Shown in pieces: positions 4,714-38,158 of a stretch of 38,564 nucleotides of DNA. Numbering within the stretch: position 1 is the first letter of the stretch; each line of letters opens with the position of its first letter. The notes under the pieces were generated by a model. It worked only from the letters and a program-made list of their open reading frames with translations. It was not told the origin of the DNA and made no database searches. This stretch comes from Kiritimatiellota bacterium (GTDB lineage Bacteria > Verrucomicrobiota > Kiritimatiellia > Kiritimatiellales > Tichowtungiaceae). Where the stretch lies: NCBI GenBank assembly GCA_014381785.1, contig JACNKZ010000047.1, positions 1 to 38,564 of the forward strand, written 5' to 3'. Made by a program: the position numbers and the translations under genes.

Positions 4714-5574
4714 TCAATCCGCCAGCCGGACCCACTGCTCGATTGTAATCTGCTCCGGGCGCATCGCCGGATCGATGCCGGCTTTTTCCAACCCTTGGAA
4801 AAATTCCGGCAGGTTTTTCCGAAGGTTGGAACCGATCTGCTTGCGGCGCTGAGTGAACGTTGTTTTGACCAGCCGTTTGAAGCGGTCGTAGTCCGCCACA
4901 TCTGCCAGCGGCGCGGAGCGCTTTTCAAAACGGACCACCGCCGACCACACCTTGGGCGCGGGCATAAAACAGTTCGGGCTGACGTTCTTGATGTTCTTCA
5001 CCTCATAGTTCAGCTGGCTCCAGATTGCCAGCGGGCCGTACGCTTTGCTGCCGGGCTGCGCGGTGAGGCGGTCGGCCACTTCCTTCTGCACCATGAACAC
5101 CATCTTCTCCGGTAGCGGATTTGCTTCGAGTGCATTGACGATGAAACGGCTGCCGACCGAATAGGGCAGGTTGGCCACAATTTTATTCATCCCGCCGGAA
5201 AATAACTCAGACAGATTCACGTTCAGAACATCGTCCTCCAAAAGAACCACACCTTTAAAGGTATGGTTAATATGGCGGGCCATCGCCGGATCTTTTTCGA
5301 TGGCGGTCAGCGGCGCGCCGGTCGCCAGCAGCGCCTGCGTCAGCGCGCCGAGACCCGGCCCGATTTCAAGCAGGCGGTCTCCGTCTGAAATCTGAGCGGC
5401 ATCGACGATGATGCCGAGGATGTTGCCGTCGATGAGGTAGTTCTGTCCGAGCCCTTTGTTCGGCCGGTGGCCGAGAGAATCCAGTAACGAGCGGATAACA
5501 GAAGGAGACGTCAGGCGCGGAAGAGGGGTGCCGGAGTGTTGGAGTGCTGGAGTGCCGGAGGTTTCTTTTTTCAT
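4714..5574 (-). CDS. rsmA: 16S rRNA (adenine1518-N6/adenine1519-N6)-dimethyltransferase
   Basis: RsmA/KsgA dimethylates two adjacent adenines in the 3' hairpin of 16S rRNA, a late 30S maturation step, using S-adenosylmethionine. Visible motifs are GQNYLID near the N-terminus, the SAM-binding LEIGPGLGALT, the acidic IEKD, the catalytic NLPYSV, and the C-terminal GIDPAMRPEQITIEQW. The ATG at 5574 is preferred because GGAG lies just upstream; an ATGATG at 5601 is in frame but lacks a site. The first 20 residues (SGTPALQHSGTPLPRL) are translated from a low-complexity GGAGTG-type repeat, so the N-terminus may be an extension. Near the C-terminus, residues FFQGLEK are encoded by a TTCCAA palindrome. 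It is last in the order surA-pdxA-rsmA, as in enterobacteria. Confidence 0.95.
   Translation of the reverse strand: MKKETSGTPALQHSGTPLPRLTSPSVIRSLLDSLGHRPNKGLGQNYLIDGNILGIIVDAAQISDGDRLLEIGPGLGALTQALLATGAPLTAIEKDPAMARHINHTFKGVVLLEDDVLNVNLSELFSGGMNKIVANLPYSVGSRFIVNALEANPLPEKMVFMVQKEVADRLTAQPGSKAYGPLAIWSQLNYEVKNIKNVSPNCFMPAPKVWSAVVRFEKRSAPLADVADYDRFKRLVKTTFTQRRKQIGSNLRKNLPEFFQGLEKAGIDPAMRPEQITIEQWVRLAD
4783..4831. repeat. Two TTCCAA-type palindromes 31 bp apart, inside rsmA
   Basis: Copy 1 (4783-4803) is a perfect 21-base palindrome with nine-base arms and spacer CCC, centre 4793. Copy 2 (4817-4831) is TTCCGA-AGG-TTGGAA with one mismatch, centre 4824. The centre-to-centre distance is 31. Both are read as part of the rsmA C-terminal coding sequence. 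Confidence 0.8.
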
Positions 5575-9635: not shown

Positions 9636-9730
9636 GCGTGCCCCATGGGATGGTCTCGTGGGCTGCTCCGGCGAACCGGAGCCTATCCAACATTGTATTA
9701 AGCAATGTAATACAAACCAAAGGACACGCC
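9636..9730 (+). ncRNA. Structured non-coding region ahead of the IS110 transposase (possible bridge-RNA remnant)
   Basis: GGCGTG (9636-9641) can pair with CACGCC (9725-9730), enclosing two internal hairpins: GCTCCGG/CCGGAGC with a CGAA tetraloop (9665-9682), and TTGTATTA/TAATACAA with a 7-base loop (9693-9715). IS110-family elements encode a structured guide (bridge) RNA in a non-coding end beside the transposase. The position and nested-hairpin design fit, but no donor- or target-matching loops were identified, and the element is broken. Expression is unproven. Confidence 0.4.
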
Positions 9731-10152
9731 ATGCGAAAAGTATACATAGGAATCGACGCGCACAAAGAATCAAATGTTGTTGCACTCGCTTTTTCAGGAG
9801 CGGGGGAGCCGGAGCTCTACGGAAAGGCATCGGCTGATTTAAAGGCGTTTGAGGCTGTACTGCGGCGGATCATGAAGAAGCATGATCTATCCAAGGAGGA
9901 TATTGCGCTGTGTTACGAGGCGGGGCCGACAGGATTCGTATTGGCGAGACGACTGATTAAGCTGGGCTTTGAATGCATCGTGGTCGCACCGTCTAAGATC
10001 CCGTCACAGTCTGGTGACCGGGTGAAAACAGATCGACGCGACGCCCGCAAGCTCGCCCGGCTCTTTCGCGACGGGGAGCTTGCGGGGATTCATATTCCCT
10101 CCGTTGAAGACGAAGTGATCCGCGATGTGTGCCGGGGTCGGACGGATGCGGT
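9731..10152 (+). pseudogene. IS110-family transposase, 5' fragment (about 141 residues)
   Basis: The product begins MRKVYIGIDAHKESN and carries the first half of the DEDD RuvC-like catalytic set: Asp9, Glu63 in YEAGPTG, and Asp101/Asp104 in VKTDRRDARKLAR. Similarity to the family continues to RDVCRGRTDAV (about 10152) and then stops. In full-length members (about 340-400 residues) an arginine-rich helix and the C-terminal transposase-20 domain with the catalytic serine follow; both are missing here. The frame runs on to 10327 as unrelated sequence. The cut falls exactly where the integrase sequence begins, so a deletion or recombination joined the two genes. The element should be unable to transpose by itself. 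Confidence 0.85.
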
Positions 10153-11412
10153 AAGCGGAACTTGGTGGACGAAGCTCATCTTCCGTACTACACCAATTGG
10201 GTTTTGCGTTTTCTACGCTCTGAGTTCGACCGGGAGCACCTTTCGGAAAACGATTTGCTCCAGTGTTTTTCGGATCAGCTGGCTCGTGATGATTCAGTGC
10301 AAGACTGGCAGCTGCGGCAGGCTATGAAAGCTGTTGAGCTGTATTTGAATGTTTTCCTGCGGGAGCAGAAAAACAGTATGGCGTATGGAGCAGAGGGCGT
10401 GGGGCCGGAGGGTTCCGCTCTGTCGGAACAGGGAGTAGACGGGGCGTCTGCGGTACAACGTTCGGATGCGCTTGCACGGATGAAGAATTTACTGAAGCTC
10501 CGCCATTATGCGTCCAAGACGCAGGTGACGTATGTGGGATGGGTCGAACGCTATTTCCAATATACCCGAACGCAATCCATCGCTTGGAATTCGGCGGATA
10601 GCGTGCGTGCCTATCTTTCTTTTTTGGCCACTCAGCGTAATGTGGCGTCATCGACGCAGAATCAGGCGTTTAATTCGCTCCTCTTTCTGTTTCGAGAAAC
10701 GCTGAAGGTGGATTTGCCCGACATCAACTCCGTGCGCGCAAAGCGGGGCCCGAAGCTTCCGGTGGTGCTGTCGGTTGAGGAAACTCAATGCGTGTTGGCT
10801 CATGCCGCGGGAACCGCCGGATTGATGCTTCGCTTAACGTATGGTGCCGGGTTGCGCGTTTCGGAAGTTGTTCGGCTTCGGGTGCAAGATTTGGATTTCG
10901 ATCATGACACGGTAATGGTTCGCTCCGGAAAGGGGGATAAAGATCGAAGCACGGTTTTGCCCGCCAGCCTAGTGGACGAACTGAAGGATCATTTGGAGCG
11001 AGTGCATTTTTTGCATACAGAGGATCTGGAAAAAGGTTGTGGTGCGGTTTGGCTTCCGAATGCGTTGGCCAGAAAGTATCCCAACGCCCCCGTCGAGTGG
11101 AATTGGCAGTATGCCTTTCCGGCCGCCAAATTATCGGTCGATCCCGAGAGCGGAAAGACGCGACGGCATCATGTTAGCGAAAAATCGTTACAGAAATCCA
11201 TGCGACAAGCGGCTTGTGCCTCTGGGGTAACCAAGCATGTCACGACGCATACCTTGCGCCACAGTTTTGCGACTCATCTGCTGATGCAGGGGGTTAACAT
11301 CCGCGAAGTGCAGGAACTGCTCGGCCATAAAAATGTCGACACGACGATGATTTACACCCATGTGGTGCGCACCATGAGCGCACGGCCTCAAAGTCCGCTC
11401 GATACGCTTTGA
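10129..11412 (+). CDS. Integron-type tyrosine recombinase (IntI-like), 5' end fused to IS110 sequence
   Basis: Up to 427 residues. The C-terminal half is a tyrosine recombinase with a complete catalytic set: Arg243 (GAGLRVSE), Lys271, His374/Arg377 (HTLRHSFATHLL), His400 and Tyr409 (TTMIYTHV). Between about 305 and 350 it has the extra segment that marks integron integrases (LPNALARKYPNAPVEW ... RRHH), absent from XerC/D. A SAM-like core-binding domain lies at about 118-200. Before it is a further helical region (16-80) known in some environmental integrases. The frame enters from the IS110 fragment, so the native start is lost; GTG at 10129 or ATG at 10480 could serve. No attC array is visible nearby. 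The protein may be active if translated. Confidence 0.85.
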   Translation: MPGSDGCGKRNLVDEAHLPYYTNWVLRFLRSEFDREHLSENDLLQCFSDQLARDDSVQDWQLRQAMKAVELYLNVFLREQKNSMAYGAEGVGPEGSALSEQGVDGASAVQRSDALARMKNLLKLRHYASKTQVTYVGWVERYFQYTRTQSIAWNSADSVRAYLSFLATQRNVASSTQNQAFNSLLFLFRETLKVDLPDINSVRAKRGPKLPVVLSVEETQCVLAHAAGTAGLMLRLTYGAGLRVSEVVRLRVQDLDFDHDTVMVRSGKGDKDRSTVLPASLVDELKDHLERVHFLHTEDLEKGCGAVWLPNALARKYPNAPVEWNWQYAFPAAKLSVDPESGKTRRHHVSEKSLQKSMRQAACASGVTKHVTTHTLRHSFATHLLMQGVNIREVQELLGHKNVDTTMIYTHVVRTMSARPQSPLDTL

Positions 11413-19745: not shown

Positions 19746-20678
19746 ATGAAAGAATTCTATTCTCAGCAGGACCTCCTTGATTTTGTGCCGCGGCATGAGG
19801 TGTTTATCGGACTCGATTCGGACGGGTGCGTATTCGACAGCATGACGGTGAAGCAGCGGATTTTTCATGACGGGATTATTCGCATGTGGGGGCTGGAGGC
19901 GGCGGAAGATGACGTGCGGCGGATCTGCGAGTGGGTCGGGCTCTATTCGCCGTGGCGCGGCCTCAACCGGTTTCAACTCCTTCTGAAAATTTTCCAAACC
20001 TTGGGCAACTGCGTTGCGGCACAGGGCTTCGCCTCGCAAGGGCAGTCCGATTTCCAATGTTTGGAAAAACTGAGTGCAGAATTTCCAGACATTGGAAAAA
20101 CGCTTCCGATTGCGGCGCTGGAGCGGTTTATTGAGTCTGGGGTTCCGCTGAGCATGGCGGAGCTGGATAAGTGCCGGGATGCCGGGCTTCAGGATGTATT
20201 TGATTGGAGCGCAGAAGTGAGCCGTCAGATTGCAACGATCAGCGAGATGCCGGTATTCGACGGTGTTTCTCTGGGGTTGGAAAAACTGCGCGAGGCATCG
20301 GATCTGATTGTGGTGTCGCAGACGACGGAGGAGGCGCTGGTGCGCGAGTGGCGTAACGCGCAGCTAGAAGAGTTTATTGATGTGATCGCGGGCGCGGAGC
20401 TGGGGTCGAAAGCGGAGTCCCTCACCCGCGCGGCGGTGGGGCGCTATTCTCTGGATAAAATTGTGATGGTCGGCGATGCACCCGGCGACCTGGAGGCGGC
20501 GCAGTCGGTCGGGTGTCTGTTTTTTCCGATCCTTCCCGGGGGCGAAGTCGCCAGCTGGACGGAGTTGCTGGATACGGCGCTACCTCGCATTCAGGCCGGA
20601 ACGTTTGCCGGGGCGTATCAGGAGGATCTCATTGAGCGCTTCAACGCTGTGCTTTCTCCGACGCCTCCATGGGAGTAG
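19746..20678 (+). CDS. HAD-superfamily hydrolase
   Basis: 310 residues. The four HAD motifs are present: I, GLDSDGCVFDS (nucleophile Asp and acid Asp); II, VVSQTTEE; III, Lys in ELGSKAES; IV, VMVGDAPGDLEAA. A helical cap domain lies between I and II. HAD enzymes usually dephosphorylate small metabolites; the substrate is unknown. The cap contains a stretch (KIFQTLGN ... DFQCLEKL ... FPDIGKTLP, about 80-120) encoded by three TTCCAA palindromes, so it appears to be an in-frame repeat insertion and may not be conserved in homologues. ATG at 19746 precedes MKEFYSQQDLL; the frame is open to 19671 without other support. Confidence 0.85.
   Translation: MKEFYSQQDLLDFVPRHEVFIGLDSDGCVFDSMTVKQRIFHDGIIRMWGLEAAEDDVRRICEWVGLYSPWRGLNRFQLLLKIFQTLGNCVAAQGFASQGQSDFQCLEKLSAEFPDIGKTLPIAALERFIESGVPLSMAELDKCRDAGLQDVFDWSAEVSRQIATISEMPVFDGVSLGLEKLREASDLIVVSQTTEEALVREWRNAQLEEFIDVIAGAELGSKAESLTRAAVGRYSLDKIVMVGDAPGDLEAAQSVGCLFFPILPGGEVASWTELLDTALPRIQAGTFAGAYQEDLIERFNAVLSPTPPWE
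19991..20098. repeat. TTCCAA-type palindromes inside the HAD gene
   Basis: Copy 1 19991-20006 (TTTCCAA-ACC-TTGGGC, degenerate), centre 19999. Copy 2 20051-20067 (TTTCCAA-TGT-TTGGAAA, perfect), centre 20059. Copy 3 20082-20098 (TTTCCAG-ACA-TTGGAAA, one mismatch), centre 20090. Copies 2 and 3 are 31 bp apart; copy 1 is 60 bp before copy 2. All are translated in the HAD cap. Confidence 0.8.
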
Positions 20679-20692
20679 GGGGAGAGGATAAT

Positions 20693-20777
20693 TGGAGTAT
20701 TGGATTGATGGATTGTTGCATTTAGCCGGACATTCAGATCTTCCAGCAATCCCGTATTCCAATAATCCAATATTCCA
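20693..20777. repeat. Imperfect inverted repeat between convergent genes
   Basis: TGGAGTATTGGATTGATGG (20693-20711) is complementary at 16 of 19 positions to CCAATAATCCAATATTCCA (20759-20777). It fills the 104-base gap between the convergent HAD and antiporter genes and could act as a two-way terminator or be a dispersed repeat. Confidence 0.65.
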
Positions 20778-20782
20778 TTCCC

Positions 20783-21940
20783 TCAATCTTGTTTGAGCTT
20801 CGGGTTGCTGGCCAGCGGGGAGGGGAAGCGGGCGGTGACGATGTACGAGGAAATAAGCAGAGAGAGTACGGTGGTCAGCTGAACCAGCTGGAAGCCGTTG
20901 CTGCTTAACAGACCGGCGCGCTGTTCGGCCACTACCAGAATCAATGAAAACTCACTGGCCTGCGCTAGGCGCGCGCCGGTTTCGTGTGCAAACGGGGCGT
21001 CTTCTTTGGCCCGACTGAACAGCCAGCGGAAGGTGCCGTATTTTACCGCCATCATCAGCGGGCAGAGGATGAGCGCCGGCAGGGCGACGGCGCGCAGGGC
21101 GGAGGGGTCGAAACGGGTGCCGAGCACAAAGAAGAAGAAGACCAGAAAGAAGTCGCGGAAGGGCTTCAGCTGTTCGGAGAGGAAGAAGGCCAGCGGACTG
21201 CGGGCGAGGGCGACGCCGGCGATAAAGGCTCCGATCTCGTGCGAGAGGCCGATGTGTTTGGCAAGCAAGGCCAGACCGAGACACCAGCCGAGCGCCAACA
21301 GCTGGAGCATTTCGTGGAAGCGGTCGCAACGGGCCATCGCCCGCCGAAGAATAATCTGTTCAAACGCAAAGGCCGCGGCAATAAGACCGATGCCTTTGAC
21401 GGGAAGCAACAGCCATTGCATCGGTGAGCCGCCCCGGCTGCCGATCAGGATGAGCAGGGCGACGGCGATGATGTCCTGCGCGATGAGGATGGCGATGCAG
21501 TAGGCCCCCATTCGTTTGTGATGCAGGGCGGTGGTCGGAAGCAGTTTGATGACGAGGATGGTGCTGGAAAAGATAAACGGCAGGCCGATGAAAAAGGCCT
21601 CGACGGGGCTGAATCCCCAGAGTAGGCAGAATCCACCGCAAATGAGAATGGCCACGGCGGAGTTGATGAGGGTGAGCAGAAGGGTTTGCCGGAGCAGTTC
21701 ATTGAGGCGGCGGGGGTGCAGGACGATTCCGGCGAGGAAGAGCAGAAGGGTGATGCCGATATCGGAGATTCCGTTGAGAACGGCGGTGTCGTGAATCAGC
21801 CCGAATCCGGAGGTGCCGCACAGGAAGCCGCCGATCAGGTAGGCGACGATGATGGGCTGTCGCAGAAGGAGCGCGCCCCAGGAAAGGACGGCGCAGGCGA
21901 TAATGATCAGGCTGATTTCAAAAAAAACCGTTTCACCCAT
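20783..21940 (-). CDS. CPA2-family cation:proton antiporter, membrane domain only
   Basis: 385 residues, almost entirely hydrophobic, with about 11-12 predicted membrane segments. KefB/CPA2-type landmarks are VAYLIGGFLCGTSG, DIGITLLLFLAGIVL, STILVIKLL, AQDIIAVALL and the helix with GLSHEIGAFIAGVALARS. The family exchanges Na+ or K+ for protons across the inner membrane. No RCK/TrkA-N nucleotide-binding domain follows, so it lacks the KefB/KefC type of gating. ATG at 21940 begins MGETVFFEISLII. It is divergent from the DUF212 gene, with a 107-base gap containing no clear promoter. Confidence 0.9.
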   Translation of the reverse strand: MGETVFFEISLIIIACAVLSWGALLLRQPIIVAYLIGGFLCGTSGFGLIHDTAVLNGISDIGITLLLFLAGIVLHPRRLNELLRQTLLLTLINSAVAILICGGFCLLWGFSPVEAFFIGLPFIFSSTILVIKLLPTTALHHKRMGAYCIAILIAQDIIAVALLILIGSRGGSPMQWLLLPVKGIGLIAAAFAFEQIILRRAMARCDRFHEMLQLLALGWCLGLALLAKHIGLSHEIGAFIAGVALARSPLAFFLSEQLKPFRDFFLVFFFFVLGTRFDPSALRAVALPALILCPLMMAVKYGTFRWLFSRAKEDAPFAHETGARLAQASEFSLILVVAEQRAGLLSSNGFQLVQLTTVLSLLISSYIVTARFPSPLASNPKLKQD

Positions 21941-31442: not shown

Positions 31443-31549
31443 TGATTGTTGCACAGGGGACGGCAACGTCTGTCTTGCCCTGAATTATACACAACCTTCG
31501 CTTCCCGAATACGGGTAAGCGAAACGACAACCCCCTGCCGCCTCCGAAC

Positions 31550-31583
31550 TTCAGGTCTTAAGCCCTAAGGCCTACAGCCTGCT
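31550..31583. repeat. Degenerate GGCTNTAG-type repeat after gltD
   Basis: Read on the minus strand it contains GGCTGTAGGCCTTAGGGCTT, a relative of the inverted repeats flanking the four-helix-bundle gene at 33127 and 33579. It lies just after the gltD stop. The rest of the gap between aroC and gltD holds the palindrome array. Confidence 0.5.
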
Positions 31584-31593
31584 TCCTCGCTAC

Positions 31594-33060
31594 CTAGCGC
31601 CTTGGCAAATCCTCGGGCCCTTTGGTGGGCAGGAAGGATTCACCCATCAGGAATTCGTCGACGCAGCGCGCGGCCTCCCGCCCTTCGGAGATGGCCCAGA
31701 CAATCAGCGATTGTCCACGGCGGCAGTCGCCCGCCGCAAAGACCTTCTTAACAGAGGTTTGGTAGTTGGCGCCGGTTCGAATATTGCCGCGTTCATCCAG
31801 CTCAACACCGAGACCCTGAATGACGTTGTCGCGCTCCGGCCCAGTGAAGCCGAGGGCCAGTAGAACAAGGTCGGCTTTCCACTCTTTTTCTGACCCGGGG
31901 ACCTCCTCCATGTTGGAGTTACCGGTCTGGCGCTCGCGGGTGAATTCCACGTTGACGGTGGTGATGCCCGCGACGTGTCCGTTTTCGCCGCGGAACGATT
32001 TGCTGAGCATGCTGTAGCGGCGGGGATCTTCGGCCAATTCGCGGTGCGAGGAGCTGGTGCGCAGCTTCATCGGCCAGTAGGGCCACGGCTGGTGGGCCGG
32101 GCGGTAGAGCGGCGGCTGCGGGAAGAGTTCGAAGTTTACCACGCTTTTGGCGCCGTGGCGGATCGAGGTGCCGACGCAGTCGGATCCGGTGTCGCCGCCG
32201 CCGATGACGATCACGTTTTTGTCTTTGGCCGAGATTTTTACCGCGGTTTTGTCTCCGCCGATTTTTTTGTTCTGCCCGGAGAGGAAGTCCATGGCGAAGT
32301 GGATGCCCTCGAGGTCTCTTCCAAGGATCGGAAGATCGCGCCCGATGGTTGAGCCGCAGCACAGGACAATGGCGTCAAATTCTTTGAGTTCTGCCACGGG
32401 TAGCGCCGAGCCGATCGCAGCGTTGGGTTTAAAGGTGATGCCTTCGGCTTCCAGTACGTCAAGGCGGCGGTCGATGATCCGCTTCTCGAGTTTGAAGTCG
32501 GGGATGCCGTAGCGCAGGAGTCCGCCGATTTTGTCGGAGCGCTCGAAGACGGTGACGGTGTGGCCGGCGCGGTTGAGCTGGTCGGCGGCCGCGAGCCCGG
32601 CGGGGCCGGAGCCGATGACGGCGACGGTTTTCCCCGTGCGATCTTCCGGGGGCTCCGGAACCACCCAGCCTTCCTTGAAGGCGTGTTCGATGATGCTTTT
32701 TTCAATGCTCTCAATCGTCACGGCCGGCTCGTTGATGCCGAGCACGCAGGCTTCTTCGCACGGAGCGGGGCAGAGGCGGCCGGTGAATTCGGGAAAGTTG
32801 TTGGTGGCGGATAGCATTTCCCACGCCTGTTTCCAGCGGCCTTTATAGGTGAGGTCGTTGAACTCGGGAATGATGTTTCCGAGCGGGCAGCCGATGTGGC
32901 AGAAGGGGACGCCGCAATTCATGCACCGCGCCGCCTGACGTTGCAGTTTGTATTCAGGAAACGGTTCGTAAACCTCTTCGTAGTCCTGAATGCGTTCGTC
33001 GACCGGACGCTCTGCCGCGTTCTGCCGTTTGTATTCTTTAAACCCTGTTGGCTTACCCAT
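31594..33060 (-). CDS. gltD: Glutamate synthase small subunit
   Basis: 488 residues. It transfers electrons from NAD(P)H through FAD and iron-sulfur clusters to the large subunit, which makes two glutamates from glutamine and 2-oxoglutarate. N-terminal cysteine clusters ARCMNCGVPFCHIGCPLGN and LCPAPCEEAC bind [4Fe-4S] clusters; VIGSGPAGLAAADQL binds FAD; VIGGGDTGSDCVG binds the nicotinamide nucleotide; AAGDCRRGQSLIVWA closes the FAD site. All are intact and the length is normal. AAGGAGA lies six bases before the ATG. Its partner gltB lies upstream on the same strand, separated by a 556-base stretch that contains a four-helix-bundle gene. Confidence 0.96.
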   Translation of the reverse strand: MGKPTGFKEYKRQNAAERPVDERIQDYEEVYEPFPEYKLQRQAARCMNCGVPFCHIGCPLGNIIPEFNDLTYKGRWKQAWEMLSATNNFPEFTGRLCPAPCEEACVLGINEPAVTIESIEKSIIEHAFKEGWVVPEPPEDRTGKTVAVIGSGPAGLAAADQLNRAGHTVTVFERSDKIGGLLRYGIPDFKLEKRIIDRRLDVLEAEGITFKPNAAIGSALPVAELKEFDAIVLCCGSTIGRDLPILGRDLEGIHFAMDFLSGQNKKIGGDKTAVKISAKDKNVIVIGGGDTGSDCVGTSIRHGAKSVVNFELFPQPPLYRPAHQPWPYWPMKLRTSSSHRELAEDPRRYSMLSKSFRGENGHVAGITTVNVEFTRERQTGNSNMEEVPGSEKEWKADLVLLALGFTGPERDNVIQGLGVELDERGNIRTGANYQTSVKKVFAAGDCRRGQSLIVWAISEGREAARCVDEFLMGESFLPTKGPEDLPRR

Positions 33061-33126
33061 GATACGTCTCCTTCGGAGACGGAGAAGGCTTTAGACCTTA
33101 GGCTTTGGACTATAGGGAAGGCTTTT

Positions 33127-33601
33127 GGCTATAGACCGTAGGCTTTAGGTTTTGAACCTTAATCTCCGCCTTTTCGTAATGAATTTATTAAAGCGTTTAA
33201 TACGCGCGCGACTTCCGCCGCCGCTTCTTCCAAATGAGTTGTTTTCAAATAACTAAGTCGGCGAGCGAGCGAGGCCTGATACTCCACCTCTTTGGCAGAG
33301 CCGTAAGCATCGTCCAGAAAACGAAGATAATCTTTCTCTGTATTCCGAGCACAACCCTCAACGATGTTTGAGGGAACGGAAACTCCGGCGCGCCGAAGTT
33401 GAGAGGTTAGTCCAAAAACTTCTTCGCGAGGAAACGCTTTGGTTTCACTGTACGTTAACAACGCCAGCTTGTCCGCTAGTTCAAACGCTTTCAGTTTTCG
33501 GTGATCTCTCATTGTTTTAAAAAGGCTTTGGACTTTAGCTTTGGGTCCATTCCTGTTTCTCCCGCTATTGTTTTTCTTCCTAAAGTCTAAGGTCTATAGC
33601 C
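33127..33601. mobile_element. Inverted-repeat-bounded insert carrying a four-helix-bundle gene
   Basis: A 23-base sequence at 33127-33149, beginning GGCTATAGACCGTAGG, recurs inverted at 33579-33601 with 21 of 23 positions identical. Related direct copies (GGCTTTAGACCTTAGG at 33088, GGCTTTGGACTTTAGC at 33524) surround it. The 429 bases inside contain one minus-strand gene. The whole lies between gltB and gltD. It could be a mobile unit, or an RNA stem like that of an rRNA intervening sequence. No transposase or target duplication was found. Confidence 0.55.
33159..33512 (-). CDS. Four-helix-bundle protein (S23 / rRNA-intervening-sequence protein family)
   Basis: 117 residues, all helical. The family pattern is clear: FELADKLALLTYSETKAFPREE, then FGLTSQLRRAGVSVPSNIVEGCARNTEKDYLRFLDDAYGSAKEVEYQASLARRL. 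This family was first seen in 23S rRNA intervening sequences and also includes the Avd accessory protein of diversity-generating retroelements. It forms ring-like oligomers and binds nucleic acid in the Avd case; the function of stand-alone members is unknown. No reverse transcriptase or variable repeat is nearby, so a retroelement is not supported. It is on the same strand as gltB and gltD, and so is transcribed through if the three form one operon. Confidence 0.9.
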   Translation of the reverse strand: MRDHRKLKAFELADKLALLTYSETKAFPREEVFGLTSQLRRAGVSVPSNIVEGCARNTEKDYLRFLDDAYGSAKEVEYQASLARRLSYLKTTHLEEAAAEVARVLNALINSLRKGGD

Positions 33602-33616
33602 TATGGCCATCCCCTC

Positions 33617-36600
33617 TTATTCTCCCGCGAACTGTTCGCTGGCAAGCAGGGCGAGTGCACGTTTGTAATCGACCGGCATCACTTTGATGAATTTGCTCAG
33701 CGTCTTTTCCCACTGATCCAGAAGGCGTTTCGCGATCGCGCTTCCCGTGTATTCCAGATGCCGCTCGATGATTCCGCGCAGAAATTCAATGTCGTCTTCG
33801 GTGAGCGGATCAAAGTCGACCATCTCGGGGTTGCAGCGGTTTTCAATAAAGTCGCCCGCCTCGTCGAGGACATACGCGATTCCGCCGGACATCCCGGCCG
33901 CGAAGTTGCGGCCTGTCGGGCCGAGAATGACGGTTTTGCCGCCGGTCATATATTCGCAGCCGTGGTCGCCGATACCTTCAACAACGGTTTGGGCCCCGCT
34001 GTTACGCACGCAGAACCGTTCGCCCGCGAGTCCGTTAATGTAGGCCTCGCCCTTCACCGCGCCGTAGAGCGCGACGTTGCCGATCAGAATGTTTTCTTCA
34101 GCCTTGAAGGTGGAGACCTTCGGCGGATAGACGATCAGCTTCGCGCCGGAAAGACCCTTGCCGAAGTAGTCGTTGGCGTCGCCCTCAATGCGCAGGGTGA
34201 TGCCCTTTGCACCGAATGCGCCGAAGCTCTGACCGGCCGAACCGGTGCAGTTGATCTTGATCAGATCATCGGGCAGTCCGTCTTCGCCATGGCGTTTCGA
34301 GATTTCATGGCTGAGCATGGCGCCGATGGTGCGGTTGGTGTTTTCAATCTTCACGTCGATGACGACCGGTTCGGAACGGCGCAGCGCCGCCTGCGAGCGG
34401 GCGATCAGATTGTGGTCGAGCGCCCCGCCGAGGCCGTGGTCCTGCGAATCGATACAGCGGGTGCCCGCCATCGGATTGATGTGCTCCGTGGAGAGAATTT
34501 TCGAGAAGTCGAGTCCTTTGGCTTTCCAGTGCTCGATCGCCTTTTTGGTTTCGAGCTGTTCAACATGACCGACCATATCGTCGAGGGTGCGGAACCCGAG
34601 TTCAGCCATGATTTCGCGCAACTCTTCGGCAATGAAGCGGAAGTAGTTCACCACATACTCCGGCTTGCCGCAGAATTTCTTGCGCAGTTCGGGGTCCTGT
34701 GTCGCGATCCCGACGGGGCAGGTGTTGAGATGGCACACGCGCATCATGATGCATCCCATCGTGATGATCGGACCGGTCGCAAAACCGAATTCCTCGGCAC
34801 CGAGCAGGGCGGCGACGGCGACGTCGCGGCCAGTGAGCAGCTTGCCGTCGCACTCGACCCGGATGCGGGTGCGCAGATTGTTGAGCACCAGAGTCTGCTG
34901 GGTTTCGGCCAGACCGAGTTCCCAAGGAAGTCCTGCGTGCTTGATCGACGACTGCGGCGATGCGCCGGTTCCCCCGTCGTAGCCGCTGATCAGCACGACG
35001 TCGGCCTTACCTTTGGAGACGCCGGCGGCGATGGTGCCAACGCCAACCTCGGAGACGAGTTTGACGTTGATGCGCGCGGACGGATTCGCGTTCTTCAGGT
35101 CGTGAATCAGCTGCGCGAGGTCTTCGATCGAATAGATGTCGTGATGCGGCGGCGGAGAAATGAGCGTCACATACGGCATGGAGTGACGGGTTCGCGCGAT
35201 CCACGGTTTCACTTTATGGCCGGGGAGCTGTCCACCTTCGCCGGGCTTCGCGCCCTGCGCCATTTTAATCTGAATTTCGTCGGCGTTGGTCAGGTAGTTG
35301 CTGGTGACGCCGAAGCGGCCGGAGGCTACCTGTTTGATGGCGCTACGCCGCAAGTCGCCGGTGATATCGACATCAAACCGGTCGGGGTCTTCGCCGCCTT
35401 CGCCGCAGTTGCTCTTGCCGCCGATACGGTTCATGGCAATCGCGAGCGTCTCATGCGCTTCCTGACTAATCGAACCGTAGGACATGGCGCCGGTTTTGAA
35501 GCGCGTCACGATTTTATTCCAGCTTTCCACTTCGCGCAGCGGAACGGGCGGACGGTCTTTTTTAAATTGAAGCAGACTGCGCAGGGTGCAGAGGTTGCTG
35601 CTTTCTTCATTGATCATTCCTGCAAACTCGCGATAGCGCTCAATGCTGTCGGTTCGCACGGCTTCCTGCAGTTTGGAAATGGCCAGCGGGTTGAGAATGT
35701 GGTCTTCGCCGTTGCGCCGCCATTTATAGGCTCCGCCCGGTTCGAGCGGAAGCGTGTGCGGGATAGTGCGTTTGGGCCAGGCCTTGGCGTGGCGGGCCGC
35801 TACTTCCGTCGCGATCCCGTCCAGATCAATGCCTTCAATCCGCGAGGCCGTGCCGGTGAAATAGGTGGAGATTACCTTGCTACTGAGGCCGATCGCTTCA
35901 AAAATCTGCGCTCCGCGATAGCTGTGCAGGGTTGAAATCCCCATTTTCGACATTGTTTTGAGAAGCCCCTTGTTGACCCCTTTGAGAAAATTATTGGTGG
36001 CTTTTTCGATGCTGATTTCTTCGAGGGTGTTGTCTTCAATCATCGCCTCGAGGGTTTCAAAAACAAGATAGGGATTGACGGCGCCGACGCCGAAACCAAA
36101 GAGCAGAGCGAAGTGGTGCACTTCGCGCGGCTCTCCACTTTCTACAATCAGTGCGCACTGGTTGCGCTGCAGTTTGCGGATCAAGTGATGGTGTAGCGCG
36201 CTGGTCGCCAGCAGGGCCGGGATCGGCGCTTTTTTCCGGTCGGCGGTTCGATCCGAAAGGATCAGCAGGGTGCCGCCCTCTTCAATGGCTTCAGAGGCTT
36301 TGTTGCAAAGCTCGGTCAGCGCGCGCTGAAGGCCTTTGCCGCCCGCGTTCACGTTGTAGAGAATCGGCAGGGTGACGGGTTTGAGGCCGTCTTGATCCAG
36401 CGCCTTGATTTTGGCCATCGCTTCGTTGGTCAGAATTGGTTGCTCGATTTTGAGTTGCTGACAGTGCAACGGGGTTTCTGCAAACAGATCCTGCCCCGCG
36501 CCGATGTTGGTCAGCAGCGAGGTGATGCACTCCTCACGGATGGCGTCGAGCGGAGGATTGGTTACTTGCGCAAAGAGCTGCTTAAAGTAGTTGTAGAGCA

Positions 36601-38158
36601 TTTGCGGTTTATCCGCGAGCACGGCCAGCGGCGTGTCGGTTCCCATCGAGCCGGTGGTCTCTATGCCATTTTTCGCGATCGGGGCCAGCAGATGGTTGAG
36701 GTCTTCCATCGTGTAGCCGAACAACCGCTGGCGCTGCACCCGTGTTTCGGGCTTCGGCTTTTGAACAACGGTTTCGGGCAGCGCATTCAGGCTGACGAGA
36801 TTCTGGTCCAGCCACTCTCCATAGGGTTGCTGGGTCGCGATTTCGTGTTTGATCTCCTCGTCCGGAACAATGCGCCCTTTTTCCATGTCGACAAGGAACA
36901 TACGGCCCGGCTCGAGGCGGCCTTTGTACTCCACGTTTTCAGGATCGATATCCACAATGCCGGTTTCCGAGCCCATGATCACATAGCCGTCTTTGGTGAC
37001 GGTGTAGCGCGAGGGGCGCAGACCGTTGCGGTCGAGAATGGCCCCGAGGCAGGTGCCATCGGTGAACGGAATCGAGGCCGGGCCGTCCCAGGGCTCCATC
37101 AGGCAGGAGTGATACTCATAGAACGCTTTTTTCTCCGCGCTCATGGTCTTGTGGTTCTGCCACGCTTCGGGAATCAGCATCATCATCACGTGCGGCAGCG
37201 AGCGGCCGGTGTGATAGAGCAATTCGACCGCCTGGTCGAGCGACGCGGAGTCCGACAGGCTCGGCTGAATGATCGGGAAGAGCCGGTCGATGTTTTCGCC
37301 GAACAAATCGGATTTGAACAGACCCTGCCGGGCGTTCATCCAGTTGAAGTTTCCGCGCAACGTGTTGATTTCGCCGTTGTGACAGAGCACATGGAAGGGC
37401 TGGGCCAGTTTCCAGGCCGGGAAGGTATTGGTGCTGTAGCGCTGATGCACAATGGCCAGCGCGCTTTCGAACTCCGGATCCAGCAGGTCGGGGTAGTAGG
37501 CGCTGATCTGCTCGGGAAGCAACAGCCCTTTGTAGATAATGATCCGGCAGGTGAGCGTCGGGATGTAAAAATCGTCTTTATCCGCCAGCTTGGATTCAAA
37601 AATCGCGTTTTCAGCCACCTTGCGGATGATATAGAGCATGCGGTCGAAGTGGCGCTCGTCGTTGACGCCTTTGCCGCGGCCAATAAAAATCTGCCAGATG
37701 CGCGGTTCGGAATTCTTGGCGGTCTTGCCAATCGTTTCGTTACAGGTCGGCATCTCGCGCCAGCCCAGTAGAACCTGCCCCTCGGCTTCGACCGATTTTT
37801 CGAGAACCTGCATGCACTCCTTGCGCTGCGCCTCGTCCTGCGGAAGGAAGACTAGACCGGTGCCGTATTCTTTCGGGGCGGGCAGTTCAAACCCGAGTTT
37901 TGAACATTCGCGCTGATAAAGGGCGTGCGGAATCTGCAGCAGAATTCCCGCGCCGTCACCGGTCATCGGATCGGAGCCCACCGCCCCGCGATGGGTGAGG
38001 CGCACTAGAATTTCAATCCCGCTCTGGATGATGTCGTGCGACTTTTTTCCATGAAGGTTACAAATAAACCCGACGCCGCAGGCATCGTGCTCGTTGTCCG
38101 CATGGTAAAGTCCCTGCGGTTTCGGAAATCCTTTTGGATATGCTTCATTCAAATTCAT
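33617..38158 (-). CDS. gltB: Glutamate synthase large subunit
   Basis: 1513 residues. The N-terminal glutaminase domain starts at Cys27 ([12 protein letters not shown]); the 26 residues before it form the propeptide that is normally removed to free the nucleophilic cysteine. A central domain follows, then the FMN-binding synthase barrel ([21 protein letters not shown]), the [3Fe-4S] cysteines in [16 protein letters not shown], and the C-terminal GXGXG beta-helix ([39 protein letters not shown]). All are complete. AAAGG lies seven bases before the ATG. It catalyses glutamine-dependent glutamate formation together with GltD and so assimilates ammonia. Confidence 0.97.

Follow-up and report, generated by a model that had tools for sequence, protein, structure and literature searches.

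The window analysed here, a stretch of 38,564 nucleotides from a Kiritimatiellota bacterium, contains a gene of the S23 (23S_rRNA_IVP, PF05635) four-helix-bundle family between gltB and gltD, and this gene is bracketed by two inverted arrays of a heptad repeat. The unit is probably a minimal mobile element of the intervening-sequence (IVS) kind, in which inverted heptad-array terminal repeats surround a single four-helix-bundle gene. An earlier note on the same DNA had described an IVS-like element or a minimal mobile unit; both parts of that interpretation are well supported, and the heptad nature of the arms was absent from it. To our knowledge, the structure of the S23/IVS four-helix-bundle proteins is solved and their function is not established. 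Two old puzzles, what these proteins do and where intergenic heptamer repeats come from, appear to be one: intergenic heptad repeats and, probably, rRNA IVSs look like one mobile-element family. More tentatively, and with doubt slightly ahead of belief, we put forward a bacteria-wide class of elements of about 430 bp whose sole protein would recognise the heptads, with dispersed arrays as non-autonomous offspring and rRNA IVSs as the members that reside in rRNA.

The unit between gltB and gltD

Three co-oriented genes occupy the minus strand at this locus: gltB (33617–38158) upstream, the PF05635 gene (33159–33512, 117 amino acids) in the middle, and gltD (31594–33060) downstream. The small protein passes both curated cut-offs of its family (PF05635 23S_rRNA_IVP, E = 6e-31, 107 bits against a cut-off of 33.8; TIGR02436, E = 2.5e-31, 108 bits against 24). 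Profile searches found no further domain over cut-off in it and recognised no catalytic domain. No second gene lies inside the arms, the element encodes no transposase, and none acting on it in trans was found. The closest solved relative of the protein is Xcc0516 (PDB 2GSC; E = 3e-37), reported by Lin et al. 2006 (as cited in PMC4990558) to assemble four-helix bundles into a toroidal homopentamer. The polar residues Q38, R41, S45, N49 and E52 are invariant and are candidates for a binding face. Judged by dN/dS, which was mostly 0.04–0.14 among junction orthologues (pairs with non-saturated dS), the protein at the junction is under strong purifying selection. PF05635 proteins have been described as distant fold relatives of the Avd protein of diversity-generating retroelements (PMC10053308). 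Membership of the window protein in the Avd family was rejected (18 bits vs 80 for NF033474, 15 vs 40 for bAvd), and the bAvd and DivGenRetAVD models both scored far below cut-off.

The earlier note had placed the gene within 23-base inverted repeats, and these were confirmed (33127–33149 and 33579–33601, 21/23 inverted match). The ungapped inverted repeat reaches further, to 35 nt at 83%, and comprises a left terminal arm on the gltB side (33579–33613), directly after the gltB stop codon, and an inverted right terminal arm on the gltD side (33115–33149). Both arms are degenerate tandem arrays of a heptad (AGGCTTT/TAGRCYT). A second, outer right-hand array (33086–33115) is also inverted to the left arm, with a 90% inverted match between 33086–33106 and 33582–33602. 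Just upstream of the gene start, an extra inner array at about 33523–33538 has the same polarity as the right arm and fits the layout of left arm, spacer, right arm, gene and right arm found in two related genomes (G007 and G038). All of these arrays are assigned to the minus strand. So is a gene-less solo array of the AGGCTTT/TAGGC type (31551–31593) directly after the gltD stop codon, whose motif is that of the arms.

The window holds nine occurrences of the arm pattern where 1.1 would be expected, and none of 100 shuffles reaches nine; over the whole genome of 2.2 Mb there are 39, and a reversed control pattern gives 10. The earlier note had named genome-wide noise unrelated to the gene family as a refuting outcome; that reading fails because the repeats, though dispersed genome-wide, track the PF05635 family, as described below. 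Its proposed search for further copies of the gene with the same arms found none among those inspected in the source genome: the other PF05635 genes inspected there are flanked by different heptads of their own, and no gene accompanies the AGGCTTT arrays or hairpins inspected elsewhere. A long stem in the gltB–insert–gltD transcript had also been anticipated. In the predicted fold of the RNA from the gltB stop codon to the gltD start codon, the arms do pair (z = −4.4), which indicates a potential stem.

The junction in related genomes

We surveyed the junction by gltD searches in 40 relatives, with one further junction. Nine genomes have the gene and its inverted heptad arms between gltB and gltD (G000, G003, G007, G008, G009, G013, G033, G038 and G027, the last with its filled junction at a contig end). 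Empty sites, which the earlier note had suggested looking for in relatives, were found in six (G010, G005, G026, G016, G028 and G022) as junctions of 5–20 nt; that of G010, whose GltD is 93% identical, is clean. G032 retains a gene-less remnant. No target-site duplication is visible at gltB–gltD, where the insertion is old. The junction proteins fall into a single clade (support 97/90; present in 98% of bootstrap trees), and their arms are of the TAGGC type in most genomes, GAGGC in G008 and CAGGC in G013. The pairing of an element's own arms was 27/32, that between TAGGC-type arms 27.4, and that between types 23.7; both arms of the junction element have changed together between genomes. We propose that the element entered the gap in an ancestor of this Kiritimatiellales group, was passed down at that site and was lost repeatedly. 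The assignment to the order Kiritimatiellales rests on L207, which equals the same-order genome G027 in match length and identity.

The gene and the stem might instead benefit the host by controlling the GltB:GltD ratio or the coupling of the two subunits, a role in subunit ratio that the earlier note had also raised, and arrays elsewhere would then be post-transcriptional binding sites. We regard this as unlikely. Although the strong purifying selection on the junction protein, the single clade, the dispersed cognate arrays and the same-strand gene with a Shine-Dalgarno hairpin before gltD would all suit such a regulator, the insert is absent from the clean junctions of close relatives, G010 included, and has decayed in G032, and the PF05635 family is also present in unrelated operons (nrd, cas and plasmid genes) with other heptads.

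Two features of the junction may be recorded beside this. The short hairpin (33065–33081, minus strand; CGTCTCC-GAA-GGAGACG) holds the gltD Shine-Dalgarno sequence; such sequestering hairpins, of the CTCCGAAGGAG type, precede gltD at filled junctions and scars and are absent at clean empty sites, and their stems carry paired changes between genomes. In G035 (L070), an ORF6N-domain gene stands behind a heptad array at the junction, and G001 (L054) apparently has a decayed ORF6N-type gene there. The site may be used by other small genes too.

Heptad arrays and PF05635 genes across bacteria

Among 84 distinct PF05635 genes of the genus set, 77 were scored for arrays, and period 7 stood out among periods 4–12. 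An array was present at a flank in 69% and at both flanks in 34%, compared with 6% and 0 for 332 control genes in 400 kb of G007. The same 400 kb held 18 strong period-7 arrays, against 0–5 at other periods, and most of the period-7 arrays were not beside a PF05635 gene. At the phylum level, 22 of 27 PF05635 loci had an array, 13 of them on both sides. Named loci from many phyla adjoined a 7-periodic array in 57/77 cases and had arrays on both sides in 31/77, whereas control stretches 1 kb away gave 7/66 and 1/66, respectively; lag 7 was by far the strongest of lags 5–11, and a minority of these loci had period 8. About a quarter of the PF05635 loci showed no array at the threshold used. Rfam gave no match on 19 loci, most of them with weak or no arrays, and the array-less copies among them are therefore not in recognised rRNA. 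The arms of one locus matched in inverted rather than direct orientation at 24/26 genus and 32/37 cross-phylum loci, with a similarity of about 0.64 within a locus against 0.41–0.43 across loci. Flanking genes were co-directional on both sides at 45/66 named and 56/72 genus loci, as against 44/88 for small control genes. A search of phages found no PF05635 relative at E ≤ 1e-5.

The heptad sequence differs from locus to locus. At non-syntenic loci of the genus, motif similarity was 0.638 where the proteins were at least 75% identical, 0.605 at 60–75%, 0.473 at 45–60% and 0.436 below 45%; across phyla, protein and motif were correlated with a Mantel rho of 0.22 (p = 0.001). Arms were closer to the window motif in homologues that shared at least 50% identity with the window protein (similarity 0.573) than in the others (0.450). 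Close protein pairs (85–88% identical) occur at unrelated positions, such as L002/L124, L004/L117 and, within one genome, L089/L099, which indicates movement. For many proteins, the match between gene and heptad types thus yields an individual predicted cognate binding site.

Where a genome holds a PF05635 gene type, arrays of the corresponding motif are scattered through it; the genomes surveyed include drafts, and comparisons across them are not phylogenetically independent. In Kiritimatiellales, TAGGC-type matches, in counts that include those at the junction, numbered 19–50 with the junction gene and 0–11 in ten genomes without it (p = 1e-4, a statistic that ignores the shared ancestry of these genomes). 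A second sample comprised 61 genomes, likewise treated without regard to shared ancestry, and its designation as Lysobacteraceae/Xanthomonadaceae rests on the named locus at its centre, L258 of Luteimonas salinisoli. There, GGGANTC arrays numbered 13–426 in 17/17 genomes with GGGANTC-like arms, against a median of 2 in 12 genomes with other arms and of 0 in 32 genomes scored as gene-lacking (one of these matching weakly, below cut-off); 3 of the 32 had at least 10. Proteins with GGGANTC arms are orthologous to Xcc0516/2GSC. Counter to the pattern, the three genomes without the gene had 14–86 arrays, and two with genes of other motifs had 61 and 153. In G159, G183, G190, G176 and G179, which hold many GGGANTC arrays, no gene with matching arms was found; the gene may have been lost or may fall in a draft gap, or the arrays may have another source. 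In G184, whose arms are AGGGCTT, the reversed control pattern matches that motif and scored 92. G148 and G149, set against six other genomes, likewise support the dispersal of cognate arrays. The reversed control pattern (CTNAGGG type) scored 196 in G150 (Thiohalocapsa, L250), where the resident arms are AGTGGTT; it is another abundant heptad family, and no partner gene was found for it.

Insertion sites, related systems and a proposed mechanism

The element also interrupts gene clusters on cyanobacterial plasmids, where it adjoins nrd genes, separates cas6 from cas4, or lies inside a conserved operon of three genes. In Trichormus plasmid C and in Scytonema, an insert of 423 or 409 bp occupies a site that is empty in Nostoc linckia and Aulosira, the flanks being about 98% identical. 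A 5-bp sequence, GTAAT, is duplicated at the insert ends, at the stop codon of the upstream gene, and the gene and arrays arrive together in a site that lacks arrays. Among related plasmid operons of Nostoc ATCC 53789, that of pNsp_b is empty, that of pNsp_a has the element between genes 1 and 2, and that of pNsp_c has one with another heptad between genes 2 and 3; TTCTA is an ambiguous candidate duplication there. Other pairs show no duplication or allow no call: none was definable for L329 against L332–L334, and the pairs L315/L325 and L309/L317 are too diverged. An unambiguous duplication is thus present in one filled/empty pair only. Together with the empty gltB–gltD sites in relatives and the close homologues at unrelated loci, these plasmid sites bear out the minimal mobile unit of the earlier note.

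We consider it quite improbable that the gene is an ordinary passenger on MITE-like repeats that some unrelated transposase mobilises, its protein having no role in mobility or recognition. The ORF6N gene behind the array at the G035 junction indicates that other genes can ride, and the PF05635 protein has no recognised catalytic domain; against this, not one of the 332 control genes was bracketed on both sides, motif and protein co-vary across phyla, and rRNA IVSs employ the same protein family (PMC4990558). A mutational by-product, with slippage arrays at intergenic hairpins, genes in tolerant gaps and arms matched by quasi-palindrome correction, is very improbable: heptads are over-represented in many bacterial genomes, for which polymerase slippage has been proposed (PMC4692102), and most arrays of the 400-kb sample lie away from PF05635 genes, but arrays are rare beside control genes and never stand on both sides of one, the motif tracks the protein lineage at non-syntenic loci, the gene type present predicts its dispersed motif, and the GTAAT insertion brought gene and arrays together into an array-free site.

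The mobile-element reading places the unit close to the rRNA IVSs. As described in PMC4990558, the Coxiella IVS is 428 nt long and has an S23 ORF and a terminal stem of 28 bp that RNase III cuts; tandem GACAGAT heptamers lie beside the ORF, with an RNase III cut at the first repeat, and the accessible text of that paper mentions these heptamers without generalising. Like the 23S rRNA IVSs of Leptospira, Coxiella and Brucella, the gltB–gltD element is a sporadically distributed unit of about 430 nt with a PF05635 gene in terminal inverted repeats able to form a long stem, and its arms recall the heptameric repeats next to the Coxiella S23 ORF, in line with the IVS-like character first proposed for it. 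Unlike them, it lies between protein genes and not in a 23S rRNA helix, and both of its arms are recognisable heptad arrays whose motif is also dispersed in the genome. Classification as an rRNA IVS was rejected by location, with no Rfam match across 31500–34000 and a position between gltB and gltD. By its IVS-like build, the element looks like an IVS and is probably kin.

RAYTs are Y1 transposases, and their genes are low-copy and flanked by inverted copies of a dispersed extragenic repeat whose type tracks that of the gene. The gltB–gltD gene is similarly bracketed by a repeat in inverted orientation, further copies of which are scattered through genomes that hold the gene. In contrast to REP/REPIN-RAYT systems, the PF05635 protein is a four-helix bundle with no known catalytic site and not a Y1 (HUH) transposase, and the repeat is a heptad array and not a palindrome with a tag. 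Comparison with insertion sequences and MITEs, which combine terminal inverted repeats with a target duplication, gives a mixed picture: the duplication is clear in one plasmid relative (GTAAT), ambiguous in a second and absent or unclear in others, and the insertion in the window is too old for a call. Unlike an insertion sequence, the element codes for no transposase.

Intergenic heptamers have been reported as GGGAATC in Xanthomonas, GGGGAYT in Nostoc, heptanucleotides in Calothrix and TAACTGA in Beggiatoaceae (PMC4692102, PMC4679880), those of Xanthomonas without explanation (PMC4692102), and the accessible text of both papers draws no link to the PF05635 family. They resemble the arrays described here in unit length and intergenic position. 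The Xanthomonas repeats, moreover, frequently form convergent pairs (PMC4692102), and the Lysobacteraceae GGGANTC arrays coincide with the GGGANTC-armed Xcc0516 orthologue, the flanks read in this comparison being those of family orthologues. A literature search whose scope ended short of subscription journals and preprints found no report linking the PF05635 family to heptad arrays.

In the mechanism that we propose for the mobile element, the two inverted heptad arrays would serve as terminal repeats around the gene for a pentamer-forming four-helix-bundle protein. This protein probably recognises the heptads of its own element, and on such binding, to DNA or RNA, the mechanism rests. The protein would help the unit and the gene-less array hairpins to spread or persist, and the strand-transfer chemistry would come from another enzyme. 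By analogy with rRNA IVSs, the arms may pair in the glt mRNA and offer RNase III a stem to cleave, which would make an insertion inside an operon tolerable. If this is true, 23S_rRNA_IVP genes inside unrelated operons, such as those reported in cas loci (PMC3936711), need have no role in the pathway.

Several further arrangements were observed. In a Pseudanabaena galeata plasmid (L310), the four-helix-bundle gene between cas6 and cas4 has long near-perfect heptad arrays on both sides, AAAAGCT and AAAAGCC, which are not simply inverted; this locus bears on the published finding of 23S_rRNA_IVP genes among cas genes (PMC3936711). In plasmid pNe_5 of Nostoc edaphicum (L311), near-perfect inverted GGGAGTA heptads accompany an element between the ribonucleotide-reductase beta and alpha genes. 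The window itself contains a gene-less inverted pair of 8-base arrays (20677–20728, TTGGATTG-like, and 20739–20790, CCAATAATCC-like), which makes a solo array hairpin broadly like the heptad ones, and a single 8-base array at 5515–5568. At 9638–11409, a fragment of an IS110 transposase (PF01548) overlaps a tyrosine-recombinase ORF (PF00589, PF13495), possibly of the integron type.
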